From a virus: a stretch of 26,250 nucleotides of DNA. Shown piece after piece: positions 2,055-26,250 of the stretch (the stretch's first letter is position 1; each line of letters begins with the position of its first letter). Location: IMG/VR virus record IMGVR_UViG_3300025712_000031, positions 1-26,250 of that record. The stretch is one strand, 5' to 3'. The notes under the pieces were generated by a model, which was not told the origin of the DNA, ran no database searches, and saw only the letters and a program-made list of their open reading frames with translations. The position numbers and the translations under genes were made by a program.

Positions 2055-2070
2055 GAGTTGTCCTAATATG

Positions 2071-2097
2071 TAAATAAAGGGTGCCCGTAGACACCCT
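2071..2097 (-). terminator. Intrinsic terminator with UACG tetraloop between gp19 and gp20
   Basis: On the minus strand AGGGTGTC (2097-2090), loop TACG (2089-2086) and GGCACCCT (2085-2078) form an 8-bp stem with one T-G wobble, followed by TTTATTTA. The loop closed by C-G is a member of the very stable C(UNCG)G tetraloop class, which T4 also uses in its intergenic hairpins. The U tract is interrupted, so termination may be partial, or the hairpin may instead stabilise the 3' end of the upstream message. Confidence 0.8.
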
Positions 2098-2113
2098 GTT
2101 ATTTAGACGTGAA

Positions 2114-2641: not shown

Positions 2642-2654
2642 TGTTTATTTCTCC

Positions 2655-4850
2655 TTAGACCGTGCCGACAACTTCATCAAAGTCAACACCCGTTCTAACT
2701 GCCACGAAATTAAGCGTGATAAAGTTAATTGAACGTGCTGGTTTGATAAAGCAAGAAGCAATGAATCGGTTAGCATCAATCACTGCCGCAGTGTTGTTTG
2801 TTTCGTCACAAACTACCCTGAAATCAGTAATACCTCTTCTCCCTTGAATTTCCCTCAAGAAAGGTTCTACTATGTTAACAAATTCTGCGCGAGTAAACTC
2901 ATCGTTGAATTCGAACAGTACATTTGCGGCCGCCGCCTTAATGGCGCGTTCGATTACAAGGAACAACCTACGAACGTTAATGCGATCAAATGCACTTGGG
3001 CGAGACTCTTTAGTCTTGTCGCCATATAAAATAATCCCTTGTCCCGGAAGGTTTACAATCGGATTAACACCAACTTTATATAGAGTATCTCTTGCATTTC
3101 TATTAGCATTCCATGCGAGAGATGTTACCCCAAAGTAATTACCACGCCGTTGTCCGGCAGGAGAGAACCATGGTGCAGACACTTGATCAGTTAACGCGAG
3201 AAGACCCGCTGTAGAACTGGCGGCAGGAATGAAAACATACTGGTCATTGTACTTGTCGTAAACTTTTAAAAAGTTGTTGTCAAGTATCAAGTAACTAGAA
3301 GAAGACAGTTCGTTCGAGAAAGTTTTAATTGCATTAACAATCGCCGTGGGATTTGCTTGATTCAGCACGTCATCTCTACAGGGACTTGAAACTACCACGC
3401 AGTCTTTTCTCTGACTACTAGCAATTCCTGTCAAGTTAGCAACAACCGTTTTCTGTGCAATTCGACTAGTCATACTAGGGGCAATTAAAAAATCAACCGT
3501 AATAGTTTCGGGATCTTCGAAAGAATCGAAACCAGTATCAACATCACCCTCGTCTAATACGTTGCTTGCAACCCCACCTGACAAACTTGAAGTTTGTACA
3601 GAAGTTGTTACTTGAGTGAATCCAGTAGATACATTCCCTAATTCTGAGAATGATGCGAGATCTGCTGCACGAACGTAGTTAGATTTAGCATTTAAAACAT
3701 CTAACACATAGTTAGATGAACCGTCTGCGGTCTTGGCATCACCCGCCAAAGAAGCATAGGGAAACGTTTCAAGGATAGTGCCTGGAATTCCAGTAAAAAC
3801 ACCGTCTTCATCGATAATGGCTACGTGAACTTCGTCATTACTACCACCGAGATCAGACACATACTGTGACGTTCCGGGTGCACCATCAAACTCTGCAAAC
3901 ACATTAGTAGTACCAATAACCCAACCATCAAAAGATGCATCACCACCCGATACTGGGCAGAATGAAACCTGTAAACTATTACCTGCCGTACCAGCATACT
4001 TCGCAATAATTTGCTCTGCGTTGAGACCAGATTTATCTGATTCCCATGTTTCTGCATTTTTAACCAGAACACCGTCTGCGTTAGTAACCGCAGTTAAAGT
4101 GGCATTACCTGCTTCACTGTCAGTAACCGTAGGTACTCCAGTGTAACCGCTGCCCGTGTCTGTAATGGTGATAGATTTAATACCTACTGTGACTGTTACA
4201 TCAAGTGCATTGTCTCCACCGCCACTCGTATTAATTGTAGTATGTCCGGTTAAGGAGTCCAGAGTTCCAGAAAAGGAACCTCCGCTACTGAGTGAAACTG
4301 AAGTTACAATACCACCCGGATCGACTGCAAGTACTGTACCTGTAGCATTAGTACCAGTTCCTAAATCGATTTCGAATGTATCGCTGACCGCATAACCTGT
4401 ACCACCATCAGTAGGAGTACCGGTGATGCCTTTGATTTCCATTGCTGCGGTTGCTGCTGCACCTGCACCACTGCCACCGGTGAAACCAATGGTTGGAGTG
4501 TTGGTGTAGTTGTTGTTAGTTCCTGCAACTGTAACCGAAGCTACAATACCTGCACCCGCAATAGAAGCATTCACTGCTCCTTCTTGCGTTCGAACAACAT
4601 ACAATGTACTAGCATATTTTAAAAAATATGCCGCAGATAGAAAGTCAATTGATGTAGCGTCTGAGTTTAATGCGGGAGATCCAAATGTTTCCGCTAAAGC
4701 TGCTTCGTTAGCAACTAGAACCGGTTGTTCAATTGGTCCCCAATTAAAGTTCCCCACGAATGCCCCAGTAGAAGTATCAACTGCCGGGACTACACCCGTA
4801 AGATCAATTTCCTTTACTGTGATATTAGGAGACGCGAATTGATTTGCCAT
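2655..4850 (-). CDS. 18: Tail sheath protein (T4 gp18 family) with expanded surface insertion
   Basis: This 731-residue protein (T4 gp18: 659) forms the contractile sheath around the tail tube. The N-terminus (SPNITVKEIDLTGVVP) and the C-terminal contractile core match T4 closely: QYDKYNDQYVFIP, SAPWFSPAGQRRGN, YGDKTKESRPSAFDRINVRRLF and the final ARSINFITLNFVAVRTGVDFDE. Between about residues 103 and 255 lies a Gly/Thr/Ser-rich segment with repeats of the form G(S/T)GY-x-x-x-P/D (for example TGSGYTGVPTV). T4 has a shorter, similar insertion in its protruding domain, so this probably forms an enlarged outward-facing domain. AAAGGA stands 8 bases before the ATG, and a T4-type late promoter lies about 64 bases upstream. 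Confidence 0.96.
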   Translation of the reverse strand: MANQFASPNITVKEIDLTGVVPAVDTSTGAFVGNFNWGPIEQPVLVANEAALAETFGSPALNSDATSIDFLSAAYFLKYASTLYVVRTQEGAVNASIAGAGIVASVTVAGTNNNYTNTPTIGFTGGSGAGAAATAAMEIKGITGTPTDGGTGYAVSDTFEIDLGTGTNATGTVLAVDPGGIVTSVSLSSGGSFSGTLDSLTGHTTINTSGGGDNALDVTVTVGIKSITITDTGSGYTGVPTVTDSEAGNATLTAVTNADGVLVKNAETWESDKSGLNAEQIIAKYAGTAGNSLQVSFCPVSGGDASFDGWVIGTTNVFAEFDGAPGTSQYVSDLGGSNDEVHVAIIDEDGVFTGIPGTILETFPYASLAGDAKTADGSSNYVLDVLNAKSNYVRAADLASFSELGNVSTGFTQVTTSVQTSSLSGGVASNVLDEGDVDTGFDSFEDPETITVDFLIAPSMTSRIAQKTVVANLTGIASSQRKDCVVVSSPCRDDVLNQANPTAIVNAIKTFSNELSSSSYLILDNNFLKVYDKYNDQYVFIPAASSTAGLLALTDQVSAPWFSPAGQRRGNYFGVTSLAWNANRNARDTLYKVGVNPIVNLPGQGIILYGDKTKESRPSAFDRINVRRLFLVIERAIKAAAANVLFEFNDEFTRAEFVNIVEPFLREIQGRRGITDFRVVCDETNNTAAVIDANRFIASCFIKPARSINFITLNFVAVRTGVDFDEVVGTV

Positions 4851-4913
4851 AATCGTGTCCTTTTCGTTTACCTATGATATGATTTCATAATACGGTTAGA
4901 TTCTCAATGCTTT

Positions 4914-4921
4914 TATTTATA
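4914..4921 (-). promoter_or_regulatory. T4-type late promoter (TATAAATA) ahead of gp18
   Basis: The minus strand reads TATAAATA exactly, the consensus -10 element recognised in T4 by the late sigma factor gp55. By T4 spacing, transcription would start near 4908, giving a leader of about 58 bases before the gp18 ATG. It sits in the largest non-coding gap of the window, directly after the gp17 stop, which fits high-level separate expression of sheath and tube. The phage's own sigma gene is not in the window. Confidence 0.8.
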
Positions 4922-4926
4922 AAAAA

Positions 4927-6546
4927 TTAAAAATCAGGATCATAAACTACGGACCAATTACCTCTTTCTATGTCTTCTTGTGACAATATTTCGTTGATCG
5001 CATCGGTACCATCATCGATGTATCCAAAGGGAACAATGTTATTTTCTATTTCTTCCATTCGATTGGCAAACATCATTTCTTTTAGATTGATGTCTGTCAT
5101 GTCAGAGAAAAACTGAGTGGTTACGAAGTACCCCAGCATAACTAAATTCATAACCAGATCGTCATGATTTCCATCGGATGCCTCATAAGACTGTCCTTTA
5201 CCTACGAAAGTAGACACTTCAAGAATAGTCTTTTCATCAACAAGTTCTAGTTTGTTGGTCTCCAAAAGATCTTTAAACCCCGAACAACCAAGACGCTTGG
5301 TTTTTCGATTCATTTCTACCCCAATGTGGGAAGACTTTACTGCGGAAGATACATGGGTATTTTCGTATTCAAGATCATGATAAAGACCATTACATACTAC
5401 CCCACCCTGATCATTTGCTTCGACAACCACATAAGCATTATTGTAGACAACAGCGTACTTATATATAATATTAGGGAAGAGTATTGGAGAAATAGTGTTG
5501 TTCCGATACACAGCCACTTGACTAAAAGGGCGTGTCGTAATGTCAATAACAGTGAACGTAGAATAGTCCTGACCTCTTCCTTTCGAGACATCAACGGTCA
5601 TGATGTACTCGTGGCTCGGCCGAGTTTCTGAATAGATGGACAATAGACCGCCCTCTAAGACCCGCAGAGGCGCTTTTGCTCGTAATGACATTAGCGTCTC
5701 TGCATTTATTAAAGTGTCGCCTGTTCCAAAGAAAGTGTTGCCAAATTCTTGGTCAAACTGTAGTTGGGAAGTGTTTGATATGGTCTCTGTTTTCCATTTC
5801 TCATCTCGTCCCGGCACATCCCACCAATCGACTCTGAATGGTTTGTATTCGTTTATTCCTTGATTTGCACCTTCCCAAATTTTATGGTAGATATTACCAA
5901 TCCCATTGGCAGTCGAGGTTATGATAACCTTAGTATCTTTACCGGCAGAGACTACGGGGTAGGTTGAAGTGTAGAATTCAGATGCTCGCTCAACAAAAGC
6001 AAACTCATCGAGATAGAGCAGATTGACAGACATACCACGAATAGAACTCCCAGAGGTAGAAGCAGCAACAATCCTAGAGTTATTAGAAAAATCGATAGAA
6101 CCCTTATTGAGAGTCTTACAACCAGGTTGTAGAAAGAATGGCAAATTCTCAAGCATGAGCGTGATACGTCCAAGCATTTCTCGTGAAGTGGAACCTTTGT
6201 TTGCGAGGACTGCGATTGTTTTTTCAGGTGTGAAAATTGCGTACCAGAGAAGATAGGCGACTGACGAAATTGATTTGCCAGATTGTCTGCAAGCAAGTAC
6301 AATGTTAAAACGATTATCGTTAAAAGATTTGAACATACGTTCTTGATAGGGATAAAGATTAAAAGGAACAAGTCCCCTATCCAACGAAATAATTTTGAGA
6401 TAGGTTTCCGCAAAATAAGCGGGACTATCCATACATTTTTTATATTCAAGAACCTCGTCCTTTGTCCATTCTTGAACTACACCGTCTTTCTTTACCAGAT
6501 GATTGTATTGATAGGTATCATTTGACATTCGTATTGCTTGAGTCAT
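4927..6546 (-). CDS. 17: Terminase large subunit (T4 gp17 family)
   Basis: This is the ATP-driven packaging motor and headful nuclease that docks on the portal; about 539 residues from the chosen start (T4: 610). ATPase motifs: Walker A ACRQSGKS (about 85-92), Walker B LLYLDEFAF (about 176-184), coupling motif TSTANG (about 210-215). Nuclease motifs: Asp in MTVDVSKGRGQDY (about 319), Glu in VVVEANDQGG (about 376) and Asp in HDDLVMNLV (about 462/463). All catalytic positions known in T4 gp17 are present, so it looks functional. I chose the ATG at 6546 because AAAGGTGA lies 9 bases upstream inside gp16; the in-frame TTG at 6555 abuts that site and is unlikely, while ATG 6528 remains possible. 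The gene overlaps gp16 by 29 bases, as terminase pairs often do. Confidence 0.98.
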   Translation of the reverse strand: MTQAIRMSNDTYQYNHLVKKDGVVQEWTKDEVLEYKKCMDSPAYFAETYLKIISLDRGLVPFNLYPYQERMFKSFNDNRFNIVLACRQSGKSISSVAYLLWYAIFTPEKTIAVLANKGSTSREMLGRITLMLENLPFFLQPGCKTLNKGSIDFSNNSRIVAASTSGSSIRGMSVNLLYLDEFAFVERASEFYTSTYPVVSAGKDTKVIITSTANGIGNIYHKIWEGANQGINEYKPFRVDWWDVPGRDEKWKTETISNTSQLQFDQEFGNTFFGTGDTLINAETLMSLRAKAPLRVLEGGLLSIYSETRPSHEYIMTVDVSKGRGQDYSTFTVIDITTRPFSQVAVYRNNTISPILFPNIIYKYAVVYNNAYVVVEANDQGGVVCNGLYHDLEYENTHVSSAVKSSHIGVEMNRKTKRLGCSGFKDLLETNKLELVDEKTILEVSTFVGKGQSYEASDGNHDDLVMNLVMLGYFVTTQFFSDMTDINLKEMMFANRMEEIENNIVPFGYIDDGTDAINEILSQEDIERGNWSVVYDPDF

Positions 6547-6877
6547 CTTGTTCAATCACCTTTGCTTCATCTTTTAATAATCGTTGTAGATCAGTAGTGC
6601 TTCCTAAAAAAACATTGTTGTTTGTAATTTGTTTTGTTTCAACTTTTTCCGGTAAAGTAATATCTTTATGTTTTTTATTTAGATCCATAAGTTTATCAGT
6701 AACGTCTGCTACATTCTTTATCATACCAGATAAGACTTCGAATGCGCGAGGATGTTCTGACTCACGTGCCACTTCAATCATAAGATCAAGACCCCGCTTA
6801 CCACCCTCAATCAACTCTAAGTAAGTGTCCCGAGAGGTCTCGTAATCTTTACTAATGTTTGGATTTTCATCTTTCAT
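6518..6877 (-). CDS. 16: Terminase small subunit (T4 gp16 family)
   Basis: This 119-residue, highly charged and mostly helical protein lies directly upstream of and overlaps the large terminase, the position of T4 gene 16 (164 residues). T4 gp16 forms rings that recognise DNA and stimulate the gp17 ATPase. The central segment (about residues 20-80) has heptad-like helices, including AFEVLSGMIKNVADVTDKLMDLNKK, as expected for the coiled-coil oligomerisation core of T4-like small terminases. The tail (about 85-119) is Asn/Asp/Glu-rich and probably disordered. The ribosome binding site is weak; translation may depend on the upstream gene, which ends 13 bases before. Assignment is by position and character more than by distinct motifs. 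Confidence 0.9.
   Translation of the reverse strand: MKDENPNISKDYETSRDTYLELIEGGKRGLDLMIEVARESEHPRAFEVLSGMIKNVADVTDKLMDLNKKHKDITLPEKVETKQITNNNVFLGSTTDLQRLLKDEAKVIEQDDSSNTNVK
6556..6563 (-). promoter_or_regulatory. Ribosome binding site deciding the gp17 start
   Basis: AAAGGTGA on the minus strand, inside the gp16 reading frame, lies 9 bases before the ATG at 6546. It supports that ATG over the TTG at 6555 immediately next to it. Confidence 0.65.
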
Positions 6878-6890
6878 AAGTTTTTATACT

Positions 6891-8186
6891 TTAATTGTTA
6901 TCTATGCGCTGTGCTGCTTCAAATCCAGCAGTCAATACAGTCGTTCCTGTACCAAGAACTCCTGAATACTCCTTGATAATAAACTCAATGTAGATAGGTG
7001 TAGTAGTGCCTATTCCTGTCAACTGGTTAGGTGGGACTGCCGCAACATCACACTTCAACTGAATTTTAATATCTTCATCCATTTGAAACCATGCTGGGTT
7101 CGTATCATCTTGTTCCCATTGAACATTAGTCACCCCTGCTTCGTTACCGTTTAAATTCGTTGTTCCTTTGAACAGGAATATAGTGTCGTAACCGCTAAAA
7201 TTAACTGGCGAATTCGGGAAATCACTAGATCGTGTAGTATTGCCAGGTAATCTGGTGCTCTTAGTATTGTCTAGGTAACAATTCACTTGGATTTGATAAT
7301 CATCACCAAAACCTGCAACATGTTCAGATGCATCTACCCAGTTATCACTGGCTATAGCAGGAGTAACACTGTTTGTAACTACGGTTCCTGTACTGAAATT
7401 ATCAATAAAAGAGTTTGCAACTGTAGCATCACCGTTATTAAATAAAGTGACTTCGGTAAATACCTGACCTCCGCCTGATGCACCATCTAAGTCTATATCA
7501 GTAGATGTTGTTGCAAAGGCAAAATTGATAACTACTGGATCATCTGCCACAGTAATCGTTGCAGTGGTTGCTACTTCAGTTCCGCCAGTCACAGCATCAA
7601 ACAATTTACCAGTAAATTGTTCACCATCATCTACACCGTCTGCGCCTCCTGCTCCCGCAAGTGTCACATCAACAGTGGCAGGAGAGAATGATGTTCCATT
7701 CCATGTAACAGTAGTTCTTGCAGTTGGGGTATTGCCAGGAGGCACTGCCGTAAAGTCAGCATTAACCGTTGTACCATGAGTGATATCGAAGTAATATGTT
7801 TGCGCGGCAGACCCTGCTGCTTCACCGAATGTAAAGGTAACTGTATCACCTTCGGTGGGTGACGTAGTATTGGGCGTAACAGTCGGAGCATTTGCAGGAA
7901 TAACTGTGCCATCTATTACATTAAAAGAATGAGTTTGTTTTCCGATATAACTAGCATTGGTTGCTACTTCTAAAACATATCCCCTTGTTCCGCTGGTAGC
8001 ATTTTCTTCCACTTCTAATTCTATACTAGAATTTCTAGTACCGTCCGTGGTTTCAGTTCCGCTGTCTCTGCTCGGAAAATCTACTGCTATATTTCCGCCG
8101 GTGCCATTAACAATTCTCCAATACAGCGTAGATGCATTGGGCATATTTGAATGAAGCACACTAAATTGATATGTTGGATTAGCCAT
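6891..8186 (-). CDS. Virion-associated protein with Calx-beta/Ig-like domains
   Basis: This 431-residue protein has no counterpart between T4 genes 15 and 16. The first ~90 residues (YWRIVNGTGGNIAVDFPS, then a Gly-Tyr-Val-Leu-Glu-Val strand) and residues ~95-215 (SPTEGDTVTFTF, YYFDITHGTTVNADFTAVPP) look like two Calx-beta/Ig-like beta-sandwiches. Residues ~216-431 form a different all-beta domain with NWVDASEHVAGFGDDYQI and a long Asn/Thr-rich region. The YYF-x-I...DF-x-x-VPP signature recurs in the larger neighbour upstream, so the two genes share domain ancestry. No signal peptide or membrane segment is seen. It probably is an exposed decoration or fibre component; a C-terminal capping or receptor-binding role for the last domain is a guess. 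The start ATG lies 13 bases after the previous stop with a weak ribosome site. Confidence 0.8.
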   Translation of the reverse strand: MANPTYQFSVLHSNMPNASTLYWRIVNGTGGNIAVDFPSRDSGTETTDGTRNSSIELEVEENATSGTRGYVLEVATNASYIGKQTHSFNVIDGTVIPANAPTVTPNTTSPTEGDTVTFTFGEAAGSAAQTYYFDITHGTTVNADFTAVPPGNTPTARTTVTWNGTSFSPATVDVTLAGAGGADGVDDGEQFTGKLFDAVTGGTEVATTATITVADDPVVINFAFATTSTDIDLDGASGGGQVFTEVTLFNNGDATVANSFIDNFSTGTVVTNSVTPAIASDNWVDASEHVAGFGDDYQIQVNCYLDNTKSTRLPGNTTRSSDFPNSPVNFSGYDTIFLFKGTTNLNGNEAGVTNVQWEQDDTNPAWFQMDEDIKIQLKCDVAAVPPNQLTGIGTTTPIYIEFIIKEYSGVLGTGTTVLTAGFEAAQRIDNN

Positions 8187-8199
8187 AGTATCTTATCTA

Positions 8200-11100
8200 T
8201 TACTGTTCATAAGTTGCTGTCATAGTGACAGTTATGGCATCTAAAAGATCTAGTGTTGTGCCATCTCTTATACTAAGAGTGCCGAACACATTGCCATTTG
8301 CTTGCGTAAGTGATTCGTCCCGCGAGACCCAAACATGACTACCGCTTGCGTCTAACCATGATCCGGTAGTGCCTGAAAATAATGCCGATGATGAACCGTC
8401 GAGATCGAATCTGATATCGTAATCGCTTGACGATCCTGCAAGCAACCATGTTCTGGCGATCGGAAGGTTGCTACTACCGGAACCGGTGCTTGTATCAGTG
8501 AATCTGAAATCACCGTCTGATAGAGAGTTCCAACTAAATGTAACTTCTGCTTTGTCCGGTCCAGGTGCAGGTCCGGAATTTGCAGTAGCATTTACTGTTG
8601 CGCCAAGATCAACCAAAGTCGTTGCTCCTCCATCATTAATCTCAGCAGGACCAGAGACACTATTGATTGCTGCTGCCTGATCTGTAATAGTCACGGTTTG
8701 TTGCGGTGCTGAATTACCGTAAGTATCACCAACCGCATCGATGGTGACATTTTCGTCCCCTTGATATACAGGATCGCTTATTACACTGTAATTCTTTGTT
8801 ACCGTACCGCTACCCGAAGTAAATTCTGCTGCGGTGATTGCAAAAGTACCATCGGTGACCCTACCCGAAGCAGTGCCCGTAATTGTAACCGTAACATCTT
8901 CATACGAACCACCGTTTACTTGCGTTGCTACGATAGTATATTCTATTGGGAAACCTTCTGTTACCGGTGTATTGGTTGACGCAGTGTAAGTAACAGTAGG
9001 AACAGCATCAGTAATATCAACCGTATCGGATTGACCACCCGCAGTCAAAGTTAGAGTTTCGTTTTCAATCGCAACATTATCATAGACAGCAGTGACATCA
9101 ATAAACCCACTGTTACTGCCACCCATTGTAATGTTTCCAGTCAATGCTACATCAATATCTGCTGCTTGAACACCTGTAATTGTATAGGGAACAAGAGTAC
9201 CGTTTGGAATATTGGTGCCCGAAAGGGTGAACCTAGCAACACCGCCTTGTTCTGCAATACTTGATACATTGAACGATCCAGCATTGTAAACAGTTGCAGC
9301 ATCTACAAGACTAAACGTATCACTTGTTCCAGTTCCAGAAATTGTAATCGTCTGTGGACCTTCATAAACATCACTAGAAGTCGTGGTAGGACTGATTGTG
9401 ACCACACCACTATTAGACGCAAATGTAGCAGCAGTAATAGTAGTCGATCCAACATTAGCACGTGCATCACCAGTAATCTCATATGCAAAATCCGCATAAG
9501 TGGCGGTGTTCTGTAATGTTTGAGTGACAGTGAAACTGTAACCATCGCCTTCTGTTACGGTTGTAGCAACCATGTCGATTAAATTAGTTCTTACTATTCC
9601 TGCTTCATTGACGGTAACTGTTTGTTGTGCGGTTTGACCACTGTCATCACCGGTAACCGTGAACGTCCAAACTTCGGGACCAACAAATCCTGCGTCTTCT
9701 GTTGTAGTGACAACAACGTTTGCATAGGTTGGTGAGGTAAAGTCACCACTCGAAGCACCAGCACGTCCTTGAGAATCACCGGTCAATGCCCAACTAACGG
9801 TTTCGCCAACAGAATTGGTTACACTCAAATCTAGTGTTATGTCATTGCCTTCCGTTACAGGTGAGGCAATAGTCAATCCATATGTAGGAACAAGGTCTGT
9901 CAAATCGAATTCAACTGTATCTTGTATTCCTGTGCTCTGACCTGTAACCGTAATGGTGATAGTCTGAGTCCCCTCTTCCGTTGCAAGAACAGTTGTAGGA
10001 AGATTTAGATTTGCATAACTTGTTCCGCCCCAGATGAAAGTTCCGCCAGCAACACTGTATCTTCCGGTGCCATCATCTTCAATTGCGTAGTCTACATTTT
10101 CTCCGACAGAGTTGGTAACATCCAAACCAATAACAACAGTGTTACCTTCTGTGTATGATCCTGCCGAAGTCAGAACTGTGTATACAGGAACAACATCAGT
10201 GATCGAAGAGTTGAAGGTTGCAATCGCGGCACCGCCAACAGTATCTGAAACGTTCACTACGAATGCTTGTGTGCCTTCTGGAGGAAGTTGATCTAAGACA
10301 GCAGTAAGATCCATGGTGGATGTCATGATCATGGTATCGCCGCCAGCAGTAATACTAGCAGCAGTTGTGCCTACTGTCAAGGTTGATCGTGAACCTGTCC
10401 TTGGAACAGAGGCAAAATCTTCGTCTTCTGCCCCAGTAACCCACCAATAATAATTTGTTCCGGGCGCAGTATTCTTTCGAGTAAATGCAAACGAACCAGA
10501 TGCTCCTTCTGATATGGCAGTAGGTCCGGTGATTACAGCAGCACTAGGAGCAGCATCAACCATGTCAAAAGTATTCGTAGATATTTGAGCAGGAACATCG
10601 TGGTTTGTAATTCTAATCGTTGAGGTTTGTGTTCCTCTATAATACCCATCTACTGTGGTTGCAGATAATGTAGGTGTTTGTGATGCTGCGTTAAAAGCAA
10701 TTCTTCCGCTGGTAGTTGTAATTCTTCCATCCAAGTCATCAAGGATTTCCCAAAGCACTCCATCAGAGGTAAGTGTTTCTGTGCTTTGATTGTAAAAATA
10801 ATCACCGTTTGGATTGTGTTCGTTCGTTACAGTGATTGTCGGAACAATAGAACCGCCCTCAGTAATATCACTTTGAGAAACAGCATACTGTGGATATACA
10901 GAAGTGTCATTAATTGTTACAATCGCGCCCTGTTCTTGTGTATTGCTTGGGTTGAGATATGCTAACAATTCTACATTATTAGGATCAGCATGATAATCAC
11001 TATAAGTAGCAGGACCCGTCAAGAAAACCCTGAACGTTTGACCACCACCGCTATCGGTAATAAAATCTTTTCTAGGATAAACATCAAAAGAAGCGGTGTT

Positions 11101-12726
11101 TCCTGATACTGTAATTGTTTGTCGTTGATTGAATCCAAAAACATTTGTTTGTGCCGCGTCCCAATCACCATATCCATTATTATACCCAATCCCACCAACA
11201 CCAAAACCAGTTTGATCTGTACCAGGATGAGCAGTTAATGTGGCATCAAGACTTAAAGATGAACCAGTAGCAGTAGTTGCGTCTGCTAAGTAGTAATTTA
11301 TATCACCATCAGGTAAATTGGTTCCGTTTATAGTAATAGTTTGAGCAGTTCCTGTTTCGTTAACTGAACTAGTCTGGACAATGTAATGAACATCAGCAAT
11401 ATTATATTCAACATTAAAAATTAATTTTCTGTAAGGCGCATTGCACCAATCTCTAATAATGATATTGTATTGTTCTAAACCTTCAGCATTTAAGAAAAAG
11501 TCGTTTGCAATAGTAAAATTAAAACTCCCAGATGTCGGAGTATCATAAACTTTACCTGGCACATTTCCGGGACCTGAATTTACAGGGTCTGCTATCGGTA
11601 ATTCTGTTTGAACACCTACCTCTAAATCTTGCCACCCACCTAGTACTTCAAATTCTGTCAAAGCAGGAAGATCCTGTGTGATAGGATTCGACAAAGTTAT
11701 TTGGTTAGTTGGTGCACCAATTACATTGATAATAGTCGATCCTCTATAAATTCCTAAACCAGTAATATCATATCCAATCCAATCAGCACTGACACTGTTT
11801 AGAGTAAGCGTAATATCGCCTTCGGTTGCTGGATTCCCTGCTTGTATACTAGGAGTTGCAGTGACTAATTGAGGAGGAATTGTCACAAAATCAGAATCAA
11901 CTGTCGTTACGTGTTCTAAATACCATTTATAAGTTCCAGGATAAAGATATGTTTGTTCTGGTGCTCCTAGACCATTTAAAGAAGTTCCTGCTCCCACTAC
12001 ATAATTAACTGTAAGACCTTCGGGAACTGGTTCGTATGAAGGAATTAAAGTAATTACCGGAGAATTTAGCGAAGTTGTTTCACCAGAACTCTGAGAAGTT
12101 AGATTTAGATCCGCATTACTTTCGAGTAACACCTCTCCACCCAAATACATACCAGCAGGATGAACAAATAGTTTGAATAAATTTTTCCATTGATTTACAG
12201 GTATACCAGCACGAACAAGTATAGCAAATGTTTGGTATAACTTATCGTTGGTAAGAAATCTTAAAGAAGATGGACCAATTTTAGATATCAAAGATAACGG
12301 ATTGTTATCGTCTGCTATAAGAAAAATGTTTTCTTTTGTGTAAATAACTTCTGGATCGATATCAAAAAAAGATCTGAAAAACCATTCGATAGAGTACTTA
12401 GAACCTTTTGCTCTAAACAACACACTTGAAAAATTAGCAGCAGCACGTTTGTCTCCTGACCCTTCAAAATAACTTCCGCCTAACAGCAATTCGTCTTCTA
12501 TGAAATTTAAAAGTGTGATATCAGTCTCTGTAATATCACGAGCAAGGAAAAGATGGTTTAATAATTCTGTTGCATCATATTGATTTTGCCACTCGTAATA
12601 TTTTTCGAGCAAAGTAATAAATTTTGGATAAGACGAGGCAAAATGTTCAGGTAGAACATTTTCGATATGAACGTCCCGTAAATTTAATTTACGTCTTCTC
12701 TTGTCTATGAAGTTATCGTGTGCCAT
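8200..12726 (-). CDS. Large tail/neck-associated protein: conserved N-terminal domain plus about ten Calx-beta/Ig-like repeats
   Basis: This 1508-residue protein is also absent from T4. Residues 1-205 form a compact, mostly helical domain (FIDKRRRKLNLRDVHIENVL; DELLLGGSYFEGSGDKRAA; KGSKYSIEWFFRSFF; VHPAGMYLGGEVL) that I recall as a recurring N-terminus of virion proteins in marine T4-like phages; it probably anchors the protein to the particle. From about 222 to 1350 follow beta-rich repeats, many starting with an (I/V/Y)TEG motif and ending in T-x-T-(V/I)-T strands, as in Calx-beta and related Ig-like folds. Two units carrying VTNSVGE are 99 codons apart. Residues ~1365-1508 are a distinct C-terminal domain (WLDASGSHVWVSRDES). 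The length suggests an extended fibre. The start is 9 bases after the gp15 stop and has only a weak ribosome site. Confidence 0.85.
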   Translation of the reverse strand: MAHDNFIDKRRRKLNLRDVHIENVLPEHFASSYPKFITLLEKYYEWQNQYDATELLNHLFLARDITETDITLLNFIEDELLLGGSYFEGSGDKRAAANFSSVLFRAKGSKYSIEWFFRSFFDIDPEVIYTKENIFLIADDNNPLSLISKIGPSSLRFLTNDKLYQTFAILVRAGIPVNQWKNLFKLFVHPAGMYLGGEVLLESNADLNLTSQSSGETTSLNSPVITLIPSYEPVPEGLTVNYVVGAGTSLNGLGAPEQTYLYPGTYKWYLEHVTTVDSDFVTIPPQLVTATPSIQAGNPATEGDITLTLNSVSADWIGYDITGLGIYRGSTIINVIGAPTNQITLSNPITQDLPALTEFEVLGGWQDLEVGVQTELPIADPVNSGPGNVPGKVYDTPTSGSFNFTIANDFFLNAEGLEQYNIIIRDWCNAPYRKLIFNVEYNIADVHYIVQTSSVNETGTAQTITINGTNLPDGDINYYLADATTATGSSLSLDATLTAHPGTDQTGFGVGGIGYNNGYGDWDAAQTNVFGFNQRQTITVSGNTASFDVYPRKDFITDSGGGQTFRVFLTGPATYSDYHADPNNVELLAYLNPSNTQEQGAIVTINDTSVYPQYAVSQSDITEGGSIVPTITVTNEHNPNGDYFYNQSTETLTSDGVLWEILDDLDGRITTTSGRIAFNAASQTPTLSATTVDGYYRGTQTSTIRITNHDVPAQISTNTFDMVDAAPSAAVITGPTAISEGASGSFAFTRKNTAPGTNYYWWVTGAEDEDFASVPRTGSRSTLTVGTTAASITAGGDTMIMTSTMDLTAVLDQLPPEGTQAFVVNVSDTVGGAAIATFNSSITDVVPVYTVLTSAGSYTEGNTVVIGLDVTNSVGENVDYAIEDDGTGRYSVAGGTFIWGGTSYANLNLPTTVLATEEGTQTITITVTGQSTGIQDTVEFDLTDLVPTYGLTIASPVTEGNDITLDLSVTNSVGETVSWALTGDSQGRAGASSGDFTSPTYANVVVTTTEDAGFVGPEVWTFTVTGDDSGQTAQQTVTVNEAGIVRTNLIDMVATTVTEGDGYSFTVTQTLQNTATYADFAYEITGDARANVGSTTITAATFASNSGVVTISPTTTSSDVYEGPQTITISGTGTSDTFSLVDAATVYNAGSFNVSSIAEQGGVARFTLSGTNIPNGTLVPYTITGVQAADIDVALTGNITMGGSNSGFIDVTAVYDNVAIENETLTLTAGGQSDTVDITDAVPTVTYTASTNTPVTEGFPIEYTIVATQVNGGSYEDVTVTITGTASGRVTDGTFAITAAEFTSGSGTVTKNYSVISDPVYQGDENVTIDAVGDTYGNSAPQQTVTITDQAAAINSVSGPAEINDGGATTLVDLGATVNATANSGPAPGPDKAEVTFSWNSLSDGDFRFTDTSTGSGSSNLPIARTWLLAGSSSDYDIRFDLDGSSSALFSGTTGSWLDASGSHVWVSRDESLTQANGNVFGTLSIRDGTTLDLLDAITVTMTATYEQ

Positions 12727-12735
12727 AATTCTTAT

Positions 12736-14697
12736 TTATGCCGTTGGAAATGCTTGTGTTGGAACAGCGAAGTTAGAAGTATATCGTGCGACACCTTTTG
12801 TGATTCTAAAATCTTCAATGAATCCTCCCCAGGCAATGCCTGACGCATTACGTGTTGCATCCATTATTTGTAAAAAGTTTGAACTATAGTCTTGAGTATC
12901 GTTCGTTTCAGTACGTCCCAGAACACCGTTGACAAAAATTCTTAGGTCAGTGCCTTCTCGTGTTACTGCTACGTGATTCCATGCGTTAAGATTTAAGGGA
13001 GTTCCAGAAGTATCAAAATTACTAAATCCTCTAACCACTCTTACTTCGTGAGTAACTGCGATTTGTTCTAACCCTAAACCGTCATTCACCCCGTTAGTTG
13101 AATGGGTGGTTGCCATCTCGTAGTTACCTGACTGTAACGTGTAAAACCACCCTTCCATGGTGAAATCACCAGCACCTAATACTCCGCCTGTGCCTGTGAA
13201 CGTACTTTCAATTCTGCCACTAGTGCCATTTCCTTCCATTGACTTTGCTTGGAATAATGTAGTCAATCCCGCTTCCACATGGACACCATTAACTGTGACT
13301 AGTGAATTATTAAAAGTAGAAGCATCACTTGCGTATGTTGTAGGACTACTCTCACCATCAACTGCATTAACTAAGAATACTACGTTAGCAAAGTTGGGAT
13401 CTATATTACTAGTGTCTGTAACCGTGATCGTAACTTCGCCCACTTCTGCTGAGTTCTCTGCACCATCTGGTATTGCTCGATATCTCCAAACCACGGTGCC
13501 ACTGAATGGTGCCGCAGGAGGTGTATACAAGAATGTTCCTGCAAGCGCATCGATAAGTGTAACCGTACCTTGCCCAGAAGGTGGTTGATCTTCCACAACG
13601 TGGGTGATGTCACCAGTAGTTTCGAACAGATCGTTACTAGAAACATTCATAGTAATTGTTTCACTGCCAGAGTAATCTAACGAGAAGGTGTCATCAATTG
13701 CATCATCCACACCAGCATTAGAAGGTCCATTAACGGTAATGCTAATTTGTTCTACAACATTTTGACCAACATCAACACCAATGACAAAACTATCAGGTCC
13801 ATAAGCATCTGGGTTAGGTGTGTAGATCCATGTACCGTCTGAGTCAACCGCCGCAGTACCAAACTCCGGAGAAGTAGTTATTTCATAACCCTGTATGTCA
13901 TTTAGTGTATTCACTAATGATAAGGTGTTAGTTGCAGTTTGTCCTGAATCTTCTAGTATGTTACCAGGAAGACTAGCACTGTCTCCTGAAAGAATATTGG
14001 ATTCGACTTTACAGAATGCAAGCAAACCGCCTGTATCGAAATCGAGAAAATTAGTTTCTACTGTTCTAATAATAGCAGAAGCAGATTCAACAACCTTATA
14101 CATATTAATCTTCATTTCAAAATCTAGTGTGTAGATGATAGTTCTACGGGTTTCGATTGCTCCCTCGTAGTCATCCTGCATAACCACACCGTCTAATCTT
14201 ATAGGAGTATCTTCTGTGACATCATATCCTTCTAGTGGTTTAACAGATACTGTATATTGAGGTGTGAAAAAAGGTATAATTTGTTCGACAACTTGAAGCG
14301 CATCATCTTGACTTCTTGCATATACGTTTAATTGAAATTGTAAATTGTACGGAACGGGGTTATACATCCTTCTTGCTCGCCCACTATCAGTAGTGTCGGC
14401 AATAGTTCGTTTTCCCACCTTAGACAATTGCCGTTGAGCATCATATTGAATAGCAAGAATTTCAAATGACATTCTTGGTAACTTAATAGCAATTTGTCTT
14501 TCTTGTTCTTCACCCACTTCCATCCCTGCGATTCTGTCAATAAAATCACGGCGAGGTGCATAAGACAAAGGAACCTTGGTTTGGTTAATAATTTCACCCG
14601 CAGAATTATGTCTAACAACATAAATGTTATTAAACAACGAACCGAAAACAGCAACAGACTTTCGAATTCTTTCGTGATAAAACCAATTAGTTAACAT
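12736..14697 (-). CDS. 15: Tail completion/sheath stabiliser (T4 gp15 family) fused to cadherin-like and laminin-G-like domains
   Basis: Residues 1-240 match T4 gp15 (272 residues), the ring that caps the finished tail and joins it to the neck. The match includes NWFYHERIRKSVAVFGSLFNNI at the N-terminus and YNPVPYNLQFQLNVYARSQDD, VVEQIIPFFTPQ (about 112-146), which parallels T4 YNPSPIKMIYELSIFTRYEDD, VEQILPYFQPH. The other ~410 residues have no T4 equivalent. Residues ~245-430 hold two cadherin-like repeats (EFGTAAVDSDGTWIYTPNPDAYG; GQGTVTLIDALAGTFLYTPP). Residues ~436-653 look like a laminin-G/concanavalin-like domain (DFTMEGWFY, LNAWNHVAVTREGTDLRIFVNG, IEDFRITKGVARYT). Such folds often bind glycans. 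The start codon overlaps the gp14 stop (TAATG), with GGAGA 7-11 bases upstream. Confidence 0.93.
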   Translation of the reverse strand: MLTNWFYHERIRKSVAVFGSLFNNIYVVRHNSAGEIINQTKVPLSYAPRRDFIDRIAGMEVGEEQERQIAIKLPRMSFEILAIQYDAQRQLSKVGKRTIADTTDSGRARRMYNPVPYNLQFQLNVYARSQDDALQVVEQIIPFFTPQYTVSVKPLEGYDVTEDTPIRLDGVVMQDDYEGAIETRRTIIYTLDFEMKINMYKVVESASAIIRTVETNFLDFDTGGLLAFCKVESNILSGDSASLPGNILEDSGQTATNTLSLVNTLNDIQGYEITTSPEFGTAAVDSDGTWIYTPNPDAYGPDSFVIGVDVGQNVVEQISITVNGPSNAGVDDAIDDTFSLDYSGSETITMNVSSNDLFETTGDITHVVEDQPPSGQGTVTLIDALAGTFLYTPPAAPFSGTVVWRYRAIPDGAENSAEVGEVTITVTDTSNIDPNFANVVFLVNAVDGESSPTTYASDASTFNNSLVTVNGVHVEAGLTTLFQAKSMEGNGTSGRIESTFTGTGGVLGAGDFTMEGWFYTLQSGNYEMATTHSTNGVNDGLGLEQIAVTHEVRVVRGFSNFDTSGTPLNLNAWNHVAVTREGTDLRIFVNGVLGRTETNDTQDYSSNFLQIMDATRNASGIAWGGFIEDFRITKGVARYTSNFAVPTQAFPTA

Positions 14698-22300: not shown

Positions 22301-23576
22301 AACCATAGTCAGCAACAATAACTGTGTTCGAAGTTTTTGATGCTAATGCTTGATCGCCGGTATTGCCACGAAGTTTTACTGTGTTGCTGAATATAACAGG
22401 GTTACCTGTTTCACCTTGATCAAAACCAGTCTCTGTTCTTCCTGAAACAGAGTGAAGGGTTTCAAAAGTCTCGTCAAGGTTGACAACATTAATGTCTAAA
22501 ATTTTATATTCTTTAGTAACAGAATCTTGGAAGACCAACGGAATCGTATTGCTGATCTGTGATATGTCTCCTACTCCAGGATCTTTAACAAAGATTTGAG
22601 GAACATTAATAGCAGTTGTAGAACTATCAAACAAAGCAAGTTCAGTAAGGTTTCTGTAACCTATTGAATCAGCAGTAGTATCGACTACTAATGCTTTTCT
22701 ATACTGTTGTACGCTACCGTCTAATATACCACCAGCATCATTAGAAGTTCTATTTTGTAATGTATCAGATTTGAAAAATTTTGCTCTAATGCCATTAGGT
22801 GTAGTTGCACCACTTGTAAAGGTGCTCGCTGCATCACCCGATGCGATTGTAAATTCAGTGACTTCTCTTAAAGTAGGAGGATCAAAAGCAGTAAAGTTAA
22901 AATCTCTTTTACCAATTTTATATGGAATTGGCGCATTTGCGCTGTCCATCACAAGCAGTTGTATGCTGTTTAAACCGACAATCCCAGGACCACTAACGTC
23001 CCCATCTGTTGTGTTAATGTTGAAAGCACCAGTGATTTGTAAATCACCTTCAATTAATGAATTAGTACCGTCACCGATAAAGAGTGCTTGTTGGGGAGAC
23101 TGCCCAGTAAACCCATTAATTTCTACACCGTAAGTGTTAGAGTTGTTACCCGAAAACGATCCTCCACCCGGTAAAGCATTAACGACTATACCTTCGGTAG
23201 TTGTATTTCCGGTTTCAGTAACAGATTGCAGAGTAATTTCTGATTCGTTAGTAAATGCTAAATCGCCTAGTTTACGAAATCCTACACTGTCATCTCCAGC
23301 AACAGTAGGGTTCGTATTTAGAATAAGAGCATAATCATCATCTGCTCCTGCTTCTGGTAATTTTCCATCTCCGAATGCTAGACCATTAACCTTGGGTCTT
23401 TTAGTAAACCCACGGGTACCATCCGCGTTCGAAAAGAACAACGAATTATCGCTGTCAGGATTACCTGGGTTGGGTTCTGCCTGATCTAACGACAGATAAA
23501 GATAACGATCGGCATCTAAATCCCCTGCCGATTTTCTAACTACTTTACCTGCTAACGATATAAGTCTTCTAGCCAT
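16392..23576 (-). CDS. Giant repeat-rich fibre-like structural protein (2394 residues)
   Basis: This is the largest gene in the window and has no simple T4 homologue; by position it replaces the T4 short tail fibre and whisker genes (12, wac). Two repeat families are visible. First, at least ten copies of L-(Q/R/S)-x-V-T-x-x-G-x-x-(T/S)-T, for example LQSVTETGNTTTEGI, LQNVTDEGYVTTRPI and LQLVTDEGRVTTEEI, spread over most of the length and often followed by (A/G)LGF-x-GDSA. Second, LDV-x-GITTLDST-x-I units, clustered at about residues 671-827 and recurring near the C-terminus. A segment with ELEDDANLTF-like motifs and RVDGATTVINSTELSVDDKNITLADG resembles beta-helical tail-fibre shafts. No peptidase_S74 chaperone domain is evident at the C-terminus. 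It starts inside the end of the preceding gene (8-base overlap). Probably a long trimeric fibre or tail decoration. Confidence 0.85.
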   Translation of the reverse strand: MARRLISLAGKVVRKSAGDLDADRYLYLSLDQAEPNPGNPDSDNSLFFSNADGTRGFTKRPKVNGLAFGDGKLPEAGADDDYALILNTNPTVAGDDSVGFRKLGDLAFTNESEITLQSVTETGNTTTEGIVVNALPGGGSFSGNNSNTYGVEINGFTGQSPQQALFIGDGTNSLIEGDLQITGAFNINTTDGDVSGPGIVGLNSIQLLVMDSANAPIPYKIGKRDFNFTAFDPPTLREVTEFTIASGDAASTFTSGATTPNGIRAKFFKSDTLQNRTSNDAGGILDGSVQQYRKALVVDTTADSIGYRNLTELALFDSSTTAINVPQIFVKDPGVGDISQISNTIPLVFQDSVTKEYKILDINVVNLDETFETLHSVSGRTETGFDQGETGNPVIFSNTVKLRGNTGDQALASKTSNTVIVADYGLTNDSAFVGVRLAEDIAFNDSLINLNFVLSRGDSTNLAANLGGPVRLINNDSKGFISGQPTVVAIRSNDSVGFVTLDQIAFTGEETYGLFETVELNDSADKPIKVGGLVIRPTSARSGTEAIAIDSDLLGSSNTVNQFLVYEKTLGSSTPGKVILRELDNNVLDGDDTTLQTATERGRTTTLEIIAQGFVGDSATVQNLEATTQATLASASVTDLTTDRVVFSGAAGELEDDANLTFDGTSLQVGVNLNVDGITTLDSTSIVGTLDVEGVTNLDSTSIVGTLDVDGITTLDSTSIVGGFDVTGETTLDKTTIDGLLDANAGIDASSVKVEDLTSGRVVIAGTNGELEDDADLTFSNTTLTATNINVTTDLDVGGITTLDSTSIVGTLDVDGITTLDSTTIVGAVNLTGLIGTESLEVLTIDGSNEVARRTVESTAFTGETLTTVTDPTRPVGYDVTSTPLYLNGGISLAANATDTQATYKLLNLGSGVSGDSVEFLEVDASILDGSALGLNEVLTVGNTSNLDILLGGTSAITADSATFASNLSVGTQATLASAAVSDLTDNRVVIAGTSGELEDDANFTFDGTILNLVADFDVSGISTFDSVTVRKDLVVLGNLRVDGATTVINSTELSVDDKNITLADGATQPSDANGGGITLNLGTGGAATLLYSNTNDDWTFNKSIHTDSDLDVGNNLTVVGSTTLDSTTIDATNAGLVVTGLSDQGTEFTIVTIAADGTVGTREASASAFSNPDLQNVTDEGYVTTRPIVALGFSGDSATLGTAKVSDLTATRIVLAGTDGELEDNGSLTYSNDRLNTNRANIGAGGLTVGTTNLSDAVSDNTLILGLTALDSVVDRTLGNILDIATLQYVTDHGASTDNKLTLTGGLRLSPAFNVDDQLTLLGLVGDSVVSTVVETTAHTPLNYFTIDKASETGADTLSRRLDVTNAIDLDGGFTAALTNPGTPAGQFDVIRLADAGGTDSAFRVTLQSGATKPLEDFTWEFVLNNGDSTGAEDVYIRNQFYLNRSSLPTSSPFDTSLVVPVFNPTKLTTFDSVGTRTLGNAANQNTDFWTLQVVTDNSNQTIGTEAFATTTRSLKIDGLIIDGIKDFSTLPAKYNPAGDGNALFLGPQDSVGYRDVGAFAFKDTTTLQEVTTAVSGGDSTTASITTHGLTIRNADAFYVKQDFGSWPSIADVDDAVMWDVNTEQLTVRNLAPSAFEVPSLQDVTTAGDSTNIRSVFAGGIDFDLENTNGLPIITEQNVIDNGVGYYNMLLVQTGGAESGVVKRGSQGVVSRLTERDTLRSVTDRGASLSAVGADSARVPLIFSNYHIKFTGLQDSETRDTLVAINPSTGQISRRSVSSINANDTLSAVTGRGNKTALRLGTTGIELQRGAFAGATDTTDDLADYDLVLSTVGGVNNSTLLSVDRGQFDSDLNVDGITTLDSTTIDGKLLVKVGNTFPQTEDRLYIGGSGLDGEDASIYLGNHGDGTGYGWRFFYQGTGSANLNKLIIRSENLGSPVDALTFTQDGVATFDSTIIASGGIEGLTLANGGISGTNFDISGVNELVIADPGEGIRFSNNASGDITLAVVDDASDNILAVTGGDDTIFQTPNLNVIGITTLDSTAIDAGVNGDGLTIPNLGTEIANTDVLTINGDVVSKTAFSDLYQVPTLQLVTDEGRVTTEEIQALGFIGDSASIFYHVQIDPEDGYQLNLGNGFRTFETRGFPTNSPVTPRTALTGTGADQASFAITRTSADEFPPYLILGKSRGTDNNTLNDVRVNSGDELGRIVFAGIDQTGAGGNYFPGVDIRAVVNGAPGDEDMYSDLIVMQHNAFGDQERLLVGQGGLTLYDYGYPLTGSLSTLTLNHRSVSGTRSQQLAFKAGNSIDSDAGVEMSVVKSIARVRTNGSEEADFEISTVIGGTLERKLHIDADQSGEKVMDVENVDALKLTTGVEFRDAAGTNLVIYDSAGAVLWGNV
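21097..21198 (-). repeat. Two tandem 51-bp coding repeats in the giant fibre gene
   Basis: Two adjacent 51-base units (21097-21147 and 21148-21198) encode 17-residue units of the form LDVDGITTLDSTSIVGT with few base differences. They are in frame and match the second repeat cluster at 21361-21564. Confidence 0.9.
21361..21564 (-). repeat. Four tandem 51-bp coding repeats in the giant fibre gene
   Basis: Units run 21361-21411 (diverged), 21412-21462, 21463-21513 and 21514-21564. The first and third conserved units are nearly identical at DNA level over about 45 bases. Each encodes one 17-residue LD-x-(D/E)G-(I/V)-T-(T/N)-LDSTSIVG-x repeat. The near-identity suggests recent duplication or ongoing gene conversion. 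Confidence 0.9.
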
Positions 23577-23940
23577 TTAATGATTCCAAAAAACTCAATG
23601 TGAGTTCGAGTTTATCTGCTTGATCTGCCCAAATAGCAATCTGATTGCCTTCTTGAACTACTAACTTTCCTGTTAAAGGAGATACTGCATCGTTCGATTG
23701 AACACCAAATTCTTTAACGAGGTAAGTGCTAGTGTCGGTTCCTACATCATGGTGGACAAAGTTGACATCATAAGTTGCGTCATTCGCAATATTCGATATC
23801 TGTGCCATCAAAATAATCGCAGAAACACCTGCGGGAACTGTATATACCACATCAGTTCCCCTTGCTTTTACTGCTTCGGTAGCATCTTTATCCTGTATGA
23901 TATAGGTTTTAGTTTTAAACTGATTTAATGGAGTGGCCAT
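23569..23940 (-). CDS. Small virion-associated protein of unknown function
   Basis: I do not recognise this 123-residue protein with certainty. It begins MATPLNQFKTKTYIIQDKDAT and is predicted from its alternating pattern to be mostly beta strand: VVYTVPAGVSAIILMAQISNI (about 31-51), a middle VNFVHHDVGTDTSTYLVKEFGV, then KLVVQEGNQIAIWADQADKLELTLSFLESL at the end. The pattern of a strand pair followed by 'GDxIxxxA'-like turns resembles small beta-sandwich proteins found beside fibre genes in marine T4-like phages. It has a good ribosome site (GAGGGA, 7 bases ahead), starts at the base after the previous stop, and overlaps the giant fibre gene by 8 bases. This tight coupling suggests it works with one of the two neighbours, perhaps as an adaptor, cap or chaperone; that is inference. 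Confidence 0.75.
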   Translation of the reverse strand: MATPLNQFKTKTYIIQDKDATEAVKARGTDVVYTVPAGVSAIILMAQISNIANDATYDVNFVHHDVGTDTSTYLVKEFGVQSNDAVSPLTGKLVVQEGNQIAIWADQADKLELTLSFLESLNG

Positions 23941-26250
23941 TTATGATCCCTCTAATGCCAGAATGTATGGTGTTAACACCGCAAACAACGATCTGTCAAA
24001 AGTTGTTCCTGTAATTGTTCCTGATTCACGGTTGATAGTTAAATCACCACCAATCCTAAAATCACCTAGTTCATCTGTTGCTGTGAAGTAAACCAAACCA
24101 AAGTTAGGTTGTAGCGACTCAGCAGAGTCAAATACGATTTCGTTTTCTTTTCTCGGTATGCCACCGTTTTGTGGCACTGCCGCGAACATATTAGTACCTG
24201 ATCCTACAAACTCAAACGTGTGGGAAGACGCACTAATCAATGATCTCTGATGGAAATCAACCTTTTGTTGTCCTGCCGCATTTTTATTTAGGGGTGGAGC
24301 AATCGTTAATTCAAAACTTCCTGTTTCAGGGAGAATAGAAGAGTAAGTAAATACTGAACCACTTGTGCCTTCAACCAAACGATTACTTGCTCCTACGGCA
24401 ATATAATCACCTGTGCCGCCTACGGTTACTGCTTCACCGAATCTATCATCCGTGCCAGATCCATTAGTGTCTCCGTTAAATTGAGGATTCTGTGGTTGTA
24501 ATATAGCAACCTCTGCCCAGTTTGTTCCTGCTCGTTCTACAATATATGCGGCAGCAGAAGAGTCGTTATTAAGCACACTAGAGGAACCGTTAACTGCTCC
24601 AATGATAGCGATATCGCCAGTATCATTCATGTCAAGAGACTGTCCGTATCGAGTATTGGTTCCAGCGCCGAGTTCTTGATTCCCTCTACCATTCGAAGGA
24701 TAGACGGTTTCTTGTAAATTCCATGCTCCTTCATCAAACTGGAAGAATTCTGCTCCACCTTCATTCTCGAAATATGCTAGTGCAAAATCACCTACACCAT
24801 CGAATGCTGGACCAACAGGGTTTGATAATTCAAGCGATGTTGCCGAGACAACATCTACAATGTAAGTTTGTGCCGGTATTGTATTAGGAACAACTGAAAA
24901 TCCGGGATCTTCTGTTACAATAGAAGTTCCATAATAGATTTTCATTCCTACTTCAAAACCAGTAGTATCATCAACATCAAAGAAAACACTATTCCCTACT
25001 TGAGCAGGGACCGTAGTATTAAACGTTTCCCCAGTATCGGGTGAAGAGAACGCAGCATAAGAAGCATCACCGTTTATGGTTACCTCAAAGTTTGCCTCAT
25101 CATTTTGACCTAGTTGAGATACAATGTTTTGAGATAAACTGAATACCCCAAATTGATTCTTGGTGTAATAGTAATGTACATTACCTCTCCAACTTACTAA
25201 TATACTTGCCCCGTCTTCTGAAAGTGCAGTAGTCGGTGCACCCGATGTTGTTCCTTTCGGGAACAACAATTTTTGTGCTTTCTGAAATCCATTAATATCA
25301 TTAGCAGAATCTCTATTGTAAATATTGACTGCACCATTTACAAATAAACTATCAGAGTCTGCTTCATTTGAGATCAACAAAGTGTTGCCATCTCCAGACA
25401 TTGATAATTCACTACCCAATTTTCTGTTTGTTGTTGGGTTTGGTGATGAAGATACTGAATCAGTAATAAATTGTATTTGATTATAGTTGATTCCGTCTGT
25501 GGTCTGCAAAATATAAACAGCACCATGTAAGGTGGTAGAATTAGTGGCACCAACAACATACTTATTCCCTGTTTGATTCACAGCAATAGTCGTGCCTTCT
25601 CTGTTTGATGCTAACCTAGTTCCAAAGTTTGAACTTGTTGCTCCAAAAGTGTTAATCGGATTAGTTGTCTGTGGACGATCCAACGCATTCCAAGCAGTTC
25701 CGCTTCTTTGGAACACCTCTACTTCTACCGAGTTACTTGGTGAAGTGAAAGCAAGTATGTTATCGTCTTTAGATATAAGAACAGATTTACCTGTATTTGT
25801 TCCTTGGGGCAGATCAGTAGAGTTAACAACAACCTGATCATTATTAAGAGACACAGACCAGTTTTGTGTGATCTCATCTGATACATTAAGAATGGTGTAA
25901 TAATACGAATCGTTCGCAAACTTAATTGCGTCATTGTAATTCGGTTTCTTAAAATCACCCAATTGTAATGAGTAGTTCGCGGAATCGGTGTTGATAATTC
26001 CATTCACACGAATAATATCATCATTCAGGTTATAATCTGCATGGAGATCACCGTTGTAAATACTCTTTGATCCTCCAGTTGCTACCAATCCAAAGTCACC
26101 AAACGATGAGTTAGAGTTGGTTAGAGAACATTGCGAACCGCTTTCTGCTTTAATAGAAGTGGAAGTTGAAATAGTAAAACAAGATACTAACTGTGCGTAT
26201 GCGCGATTCTGCATCAAGACACCAATGCCATCAGCATTGAACTGTGTGAA
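23941..26250 (-). CDS. Virion structural protein with FG-GAP-type beta-propeller, 5' end beyond window (partial)
   Basis: The frame is open to the right edge and gives 769 visible residues; the TTG/ATG near 26217 are internal, because FTQFNADGIGVL continues in frame upstream of them. The first ~60 visible residues (MQNRAYAQLVSCFTIS, SQCSLTNSNSSFGDFGLVATG) and the last ~130 (SLISASSHTFEFVGSGTNMF ... GLVYFTATDELGDFRIGG) are segments I recall as recurring modules in tail or baseplate proteins of marine T4-like phages. Between them, about 25800-24339, lie seven units with the FG-GAP-like pattern (L/F)G-x-x-(L/V)-S-x-x-G-x-x-(I/L)-A-(I/V)-(G/S), then a G-x-V-x-x-(Y/F) strand: a probable seven-bladed propeller. 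The fifth unit carries an inserted ~90-residue beta module. Position suggests the baseplate/fibre region of T4 (genes 10-12). Confidence 0.82.
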   Translation of the reverse strand, partial: FTQFNADGIGVLMQNRAYAQLVSCFTISTSTSIKAESGSQCSLTNSNSSFGDFGLVATGGSKSIYNGDLHADYNLNDDIIRVNGIINTDSANYSLQLGDFKKPNYNDAIKFANDSYYYTILNVSDEITQNWSVSLNNDQVVVNSTDLPQGTNTGKSVLISKDDNILAFTSPSNSVEVEVFQRSGTAWNALDRPQTTNPINTFGATSSNFGTRLASNREGTTIAVNQTGNKYVVGATNSTTLHGAVYILQTTDGINYNQIQFITDSVSSSPNPTTNRKLGSELSMSGDGNTLLISNEADSDSLFVNGAVNIYNRDSANDINGFQKAQKLLFPKGTTSGAPTTALSEDGASILVSWRGNVHYYYTKNQFGVFSLSQNIVSQLGQNDEANFEVTINGDASYAAFSSPDTGETFNTTVPAQVGNSVFFDVDDTTGFEVGMKIYYGTSIVTEDPGFSVVPNTIPAQTYIVDVVSATSLELSNPVGPAFDGVGDFALAYFENEGGAEFFQFDEGAWNLQETVYPSNGRGNQELGAGTNTRYGQSLDMNDTGDIAIIGAVNGSSSVLNNDSSAAAYIVERAGTNWAEVAILQPQNPQFNGDTNGSGTDDRFGEAVTVGGTGDYIAVGASNRLVEGTSGSVFTYSSILPETGSFELTIAPPLNKNAAGQQKVDFHQRSLISASSHTFEFVGSGTNMFAAVPQNGGIPRKENEIVFDSAESLQPNFGLVYFTATDELGDFRIGGDLTINRESGTITGTTFDRSLFAVLTPYILALEGS

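Follow-up and report, generated by a model that had tools for sequence, protein, structure and literature searches.

Beta-propellers have been described in several receptor-binding proteins of phages, namely Gp45 of phi11, P2 of PRD1 and gp131C of phiKZ, with five blades in Gp45 and P2 and seven in gp131C (PMC4901313). In the integrin alpha chain the FG-GAP propeller (PF01839) is also seven-bladed, is built of FG...GA-type repeats and has a binding role. In a marine virus, Mantoniella virus MntV1, FG-GAP repeats were reported with a proposed role in attachment, and the authors regarded them as perhaps the first to be confirmed in any virus (PMC11467894). The family FG-GAP_2 (PF14312) is found above its cut-off in four phage proteins, which are gp054 of S-TIM5, VPFG_00309 of Vibrio phage nt-1, CDS0129 of C48C1 and protein 108 of Sinorhizobium phage Phosso. 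Those of S-TIM5 and nt-1 are stand-alone proteins of 402-407 aa, while those of C48C1 (1480 aa) and Phosso are long.

The window analysed here (the whole stretch of DNA, 26,250 nucleotides, of the IMG/VR record IMGVR_UViG_3300025712_000031) covers the structural module of a T4-like myovirus, an uncultured marine virus of bacteria, and has its main genes on the minus strand. Inside its last ORF, which encodes a tail fibre, lies a predicted seven-bladed FG-GAP_2 propeller. The repeat family is the same as in gp054 of S-TIM5, which is annotated as a virion structural protein. Since FG-GAP_2 proteins occur in S-TIM5, nt-1, C48C1 and Phosso, the kind is already known and the propeller of the window is a variant of it; yet none of those four proteins was found inserted in this hairpin of the fibre, and the two short ones differ from the insert of the window in standing alone. 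The N- and C-terminal scaffold is that of the T4-like fibres of cyanophages (phrog_17885, phrog_529; ACG-2014f and S-SKS1), but the fibres of ACG-2014f and S-SKS1 are without the propeller and carry a beta-repeat insert, which directly precedes the YY strand instead of following it. With phi11, PRD1 and phiKZ the locus shares a virion propeller as the proposed host-recognition domain, and with gp131C also the number of seven blades (PMC4901313). By contrast, the FG-GAP proteins of algal and giant viruses, such as that of MntV1, belong to viruses of eukaryotes and are without the tail fibre scaffold. In the open literature we found no paper combining FG-GAP, phage and tail fibre.

The fibre gene and its insertion site

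The fibre ORF (23941..26250, minus strand) encodes 769 aa in the window and is truncated at its 5' end by the window edge. On contig L001, which is identical to the window, the same frame runs to at least 1398 aa and is still open, and complete relatives of the fibre have about 1600-2790 aa. The fibre matches phrog_17885, a tail fibre of T4-like cyanophages, with E 9.4e-39, with both conserved scaffold flanks present and matching tail-fibre PHROGs. The N-terminal flank (25882..26250, minus strand) lies upstream of the insertion point between YYYTILNV and SDEI, and the C-terminal scaffold domain, beginning at ETGSFEL (23944..24327, minus strand), belongs to phrog_17885. Further upstream in the relatives there is a match to PF12708, of the pectate-lyase-type beta-helix, which is weak and below the cut-off. 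The fibre gene is followed by a small gene of 123 aa (23569..23940, minus strand; phrog_1276, of unknown function) and then a long gene, the same arrangement as in ACG-2014f and S-SKS1.

The portal protein of the window is closest to that of Phage C48C1 (Kyanoviridae), with 66.5% identity. Despite this, C48C1 was rejected as a fibre relative, as its fibre at the corresponding position is unrelated. The cyanobacterial marker psbA (PF00124) is absent from 16 contigs, all of them partial, which says nothing on the host. Elsewhere in the window, an edge-truncated ORF (2-349, minus strand) contains collagen-like Gly-x-y repeats (KGDKGVKGDKGDRGDTG...), and the tail sheath protein (2655-4850, minus strand) has 731 aa versus about 516 aa in C48C1 and contains a large insert between the Pfam domains.

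The propeller occupies a beta-hairpin loop in the C-terminal domain of this cyanophage-like fibre. The original prediction placed it between two parts of a common scaffold, and this is borne out by the close relatives L010, L011 and L075-L086, in which both flanks are intact and the same hairpin, FYTVTNVDSVSPGVYDVT or close to it, is empty. In the window the propeller stands in place of the hairpin turn, beginning with SDEI after YYTILNV and ending with SIL before PETGSFELT. The further claim that the scaffold is common to marine phages stands as to the shared flanks and is to be narrowed, because the scaffold is specifically that of a Kyanoviridae-like fibre and the site also hosts quite different inserts. 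Among the best 80 of at least 527 fibres sharing the C-terminal domain, which do not amount to a census, the anchor-to-anchor distance is 102-118 aa when the site is empty, 640 aa with the propeller and 1310 aa at the largest, with intermediate distances of about 187, 244, 275-282, 353, 385-395 and 437 aa. The other occupants include YDQxKCxRDVGxIVDA repeats and VTxGGxGYTxxP repeats, which we call helical and beta, respectively, from our reading of the sequences rather than from structure prediction. As the beta repeats stand just before the YY strand, their insertion point and that of the propeller are a few residues apart. Differing inserts make the site a hotspot.

Repeat evidence and predicted fold

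All seven blades are encoded on the minus strand. The original prediction gave the limits of the propeller as 24339-25800, which agree with the start of blade 1 at about 25788 and the end of the last modelled strand of blade 7 at 24340, and the three example strings that it quoted are present in the minus-strand ORF 26250..23941. Blade 1 (25678..25788), with strands A-D in the AlphaFold2 model, has a profile linked to all six other blades with probabilities of 53-97%. Blade 2 (25462..25626) and blade 6 (24499..24651; RYGQSLDMNDTGDIAIIGA) are each identified by profile links and model strands, and blade 3 (25264..25416; LGSELSMSGDGNTLLISN) by these and by the text pattern and motif analysis as well. 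Blade 4 (25120..25236) is degenerate and without FG, being linked to blades 1 and 3 and having four model strands. Blade 5 (24703..25089) is also degenerate and is split in its BC loop by a nested small beta domain, called type A (24757..25041, minus strand); with the nested part removed it is linked to blade 1 at 95%. Blade 7 (24340..24441; RFGEAVTVGGTGDYIAVGA), with three strands, is the best Pfam FG-GAP_2 stretch and is also identified by profile links and the model. Thus the predicted seven successive units hold in number, but the units are unequally clear, because two of them, blades 4 and 5, are degenerate and about 95 residues interrupt the second of these.

The family match exceeds the curated cut-off of FG-GAP_2 in the window protein (25-29 bits versus 23), and a match at E <= 1 is found in all 8 of the 8 aligned relatives, with the best E of 4.4e-10. 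Just two stretches of the window exceed the cut-off individually, and the remaining blades are tied in by the blade-to-blade profiles, which were built from 18 sequences. In the profile-profile comparison, 12 of the 21 blade pairs have a probability of at least 50% and all seven blades are linked, versus a maximum of 6% in a null of 126 column-shuffled comparisons. A strict text pattern, which was composed after the repeats had been seen, gives 3 matches, whereas 2000 shuffles give 0.003 on average and never more than 1, and the other four repeats are detectable by profiles only. In the relatives the FG-like motif is present in five blades only. The repeats are therefore of FG-GAP type, as predicted, but their family is FG-GAP_2 and not the integrin-type PF01839, which has no match in the window while control genomes are positive. 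Also unlike in the integrin alpha chain, no conserved DxDxDG calcium motif is present in the repeats; the string DTNGSGTDD occurs once, in the window only, and is not conserved.

The fold was predicted with AlphaFold2 from a 29-row alignment, with 671 residues modelled, giving a pTM of 0.70 and a pLDDT mostly of 70-95 over the blades; the C-terminal scaffold domain is modelled at 32-40, and prediction of the 769-aa protein from its single sequence gives a pLDDT of 33. In the multi-row model 27 strands are predicted, which by our lettering run A-B-C-D in each of blades 1-6 and stop at C in blade 7, and a short strand is predicted at residues 140-142 of P0001. The fourth strand of blade 7, the closing 28th, would be expected to be contributed by the propeller's N-terminal end. 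Searching with Foldseek gives 1354 PDB chains at E<=0.001, the best being seven-bladed WD40 propellers (Gbeta, WDR5, eIF3i and Swd1 at the top, with target-normalised TM-scores of about 0.7), and the best viral structural matches include FG-GAP proteins, those of giant viruses among them. Sequence searches of the solved structures give no significant match. As a predicted fold, the seven-bladed FG-GAP_2 beta-propeller is well supported for this segment.

Spread and divergence of the propeller

The propeller is present in the fibre hairpin of 26 IMG/VR contigs, one of them having a fragment only. The fibre bearing it is known from metagenomic contigs only, with no record in the annotated phage collection having a propeller at the fibre hairpin, and a scan of GTDB genomes with search patterns drawn from the propeller ends only gives no relatives. 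In the tree of the C-terminal domain, which rests on 104 columns only, 18 propeller-bearing sequences form one clade (support 90/87; 88% of bootstrap trees), with an empty-site clade next to it. Judging from these sequences, the propeller was probably gained once. Frequent swapping of propellers between scaffolds was considered and rejected, as the propeller and scaffold trees concur on the main split; the single conflict, concerning L021/L024, is marginal (p-AU 0.045).

The propeller has changed much more than its carrier. Its identity to that of the window is 29-52% versus 65-94% in the flanks, with the N-terminal flank 65-91% identical among the relatives and the C-terminal scaffold domain 75-94% identical among the propeller-bearing relatives and about 60% to the empty-site ones. 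For the same three pairs the path lengths are 0.93-1.25 in the propeller versus 0.084-0.18 in the scaffold, so that the propeller has diverged about 7-11 times faster. The dN/dS values of 0.07-0.20 in the propeller versus 0-0.08 in the scaffold imply purifying selection on the reading frame that is less strict in the propeller. With dN/dS well under 1, the values give no support for positive selection in the propeller, and relaxed constraint may account for its faster change.

The divergence is unevenly distributed over the blades. The long and variable loops are BC and DA, with pairwise identities of 0.25 and 0.26, respectively, versus 0.49 for AB and 0.34 for CD, and the strands have 0.36-0.50. 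The BC loop of blade 5 holds the nested type A in the group of the window and no nested domain in L033, while elsewhere a nested type B replaces type A (in L017-L034, including L021/L024). A test for homology between the two types detected no relation.

Proposed function and its meaning

Based on the much faster change than in the surrounding fibre, the propeller is probably what holds on to the host cell, and receptor binding is its likeliest function. We propose, with a probability of about 0.7, that the propeller is an exchangeable receptor-binding head near the C-terminal end of the long T4-like fibre. In a propeller the BC and DA loops share one face. The two scaffold connections would, judging from the topology, both emerge at the AB/CD face of the propeller, and the BC and DA loops together with the nested domain of blade 5 would therefore face away from the fibre, an orientation that comes from the topology with the C-terminal scaffold domain modelled at a pLDDT of 32-40 only. 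This outer face would bind a structure on the host surface, a polysaccharide or a surface protein, during adsorption, and the fast change, as well as the exchange of one nested domain for another, would then follow the variation of the hosts.

It is noted that adhesin-like domains are also present on another tail protein. In the window the tail-sheath stabiliser gp15 (12736-14697, minus strand) has C-terminal Ig-like and laminin-G domains, and its homologues in L171, L172 and L173 have FG-GAP_2 in a C-terminal extension, replacing laminin-G. That some contigs with the propeller-bearing fibre also bear FG-GAP_2 on gp15, and that adhesin-like domains are thus present on several tail proteins, would fit a general stickiness, in which the propeller is a low-affinity decoration that raises the rate of encounter with mucus, organic particles or many cell surfaces and does not select the host. 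We consider this unlikely, because the far faster evolution than that of the scaffold and the variation on one face are more like those of a specific receptor binder. The same loop variation also counts against a structural spacer or stability module without ligand: the helical and beta repeats occupying the same site have no known binding role and in some fibres the site is empty, as would suit a spacer, but it is hard to see why a spacer should vary in its loops on one side and have its nested domain replaced, and this reading is very improbable.

The least probable of these alternatives, to which we give hardly any weight, is that the propeller cleaves glycans in the manner of a depolymerase. 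Many carbohydrate-active enzymes are found among propeller folds, as was noted for the structures that best match the phi11 propeller (PMC4901313), and the upstream scaffold has the weak pectate-lyase-type match. However, none of the enzyme propeller families is matched above the cut-off, the Asp-box is not conserved, and the loops are poorly conserved, unlike those of an active site.

Three further ORFs were observed on the contigs. In L175, on the contig of L018, an open ORF of 3976 aa (1432-13359, plus strand) has 27 FG-GAP_2 and 18 DUF285 stretches; in L174, on the contig of L034, an ORF of 2092 aa (3412-9687, minus strand) has FG-GAP_2 repeats; and in L172 an ORF beside the neck genes (8157-9998, minus strand) contains GTSSAAPMVTG, which resembles the catalytic serine motif of subtilases.

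With this fibre, FG-GAP_2 propellers join the small set of propeller folds on phage tails. It is conceivable, although we hold it rather doubtful, that these marine myoviruses have a general system by which several tail proteins at once, the tail-sheath stabiliser included, take up exchangeable adhesin-like domains at fixed docking loops or ends, the domains in such a system being FG-GAP_2 propellers, laminin-G, Ig, helical and beta repeats and the small domains nested in the propeller. The fibres provide a natural comparison, with the same fibre occurring with and without the propeller and with a domain whose rate of change exceeds that of its carrier about 7-11 times, so that it can be tested directly which part of the fibre recognises the host in an uncultured marine phage.
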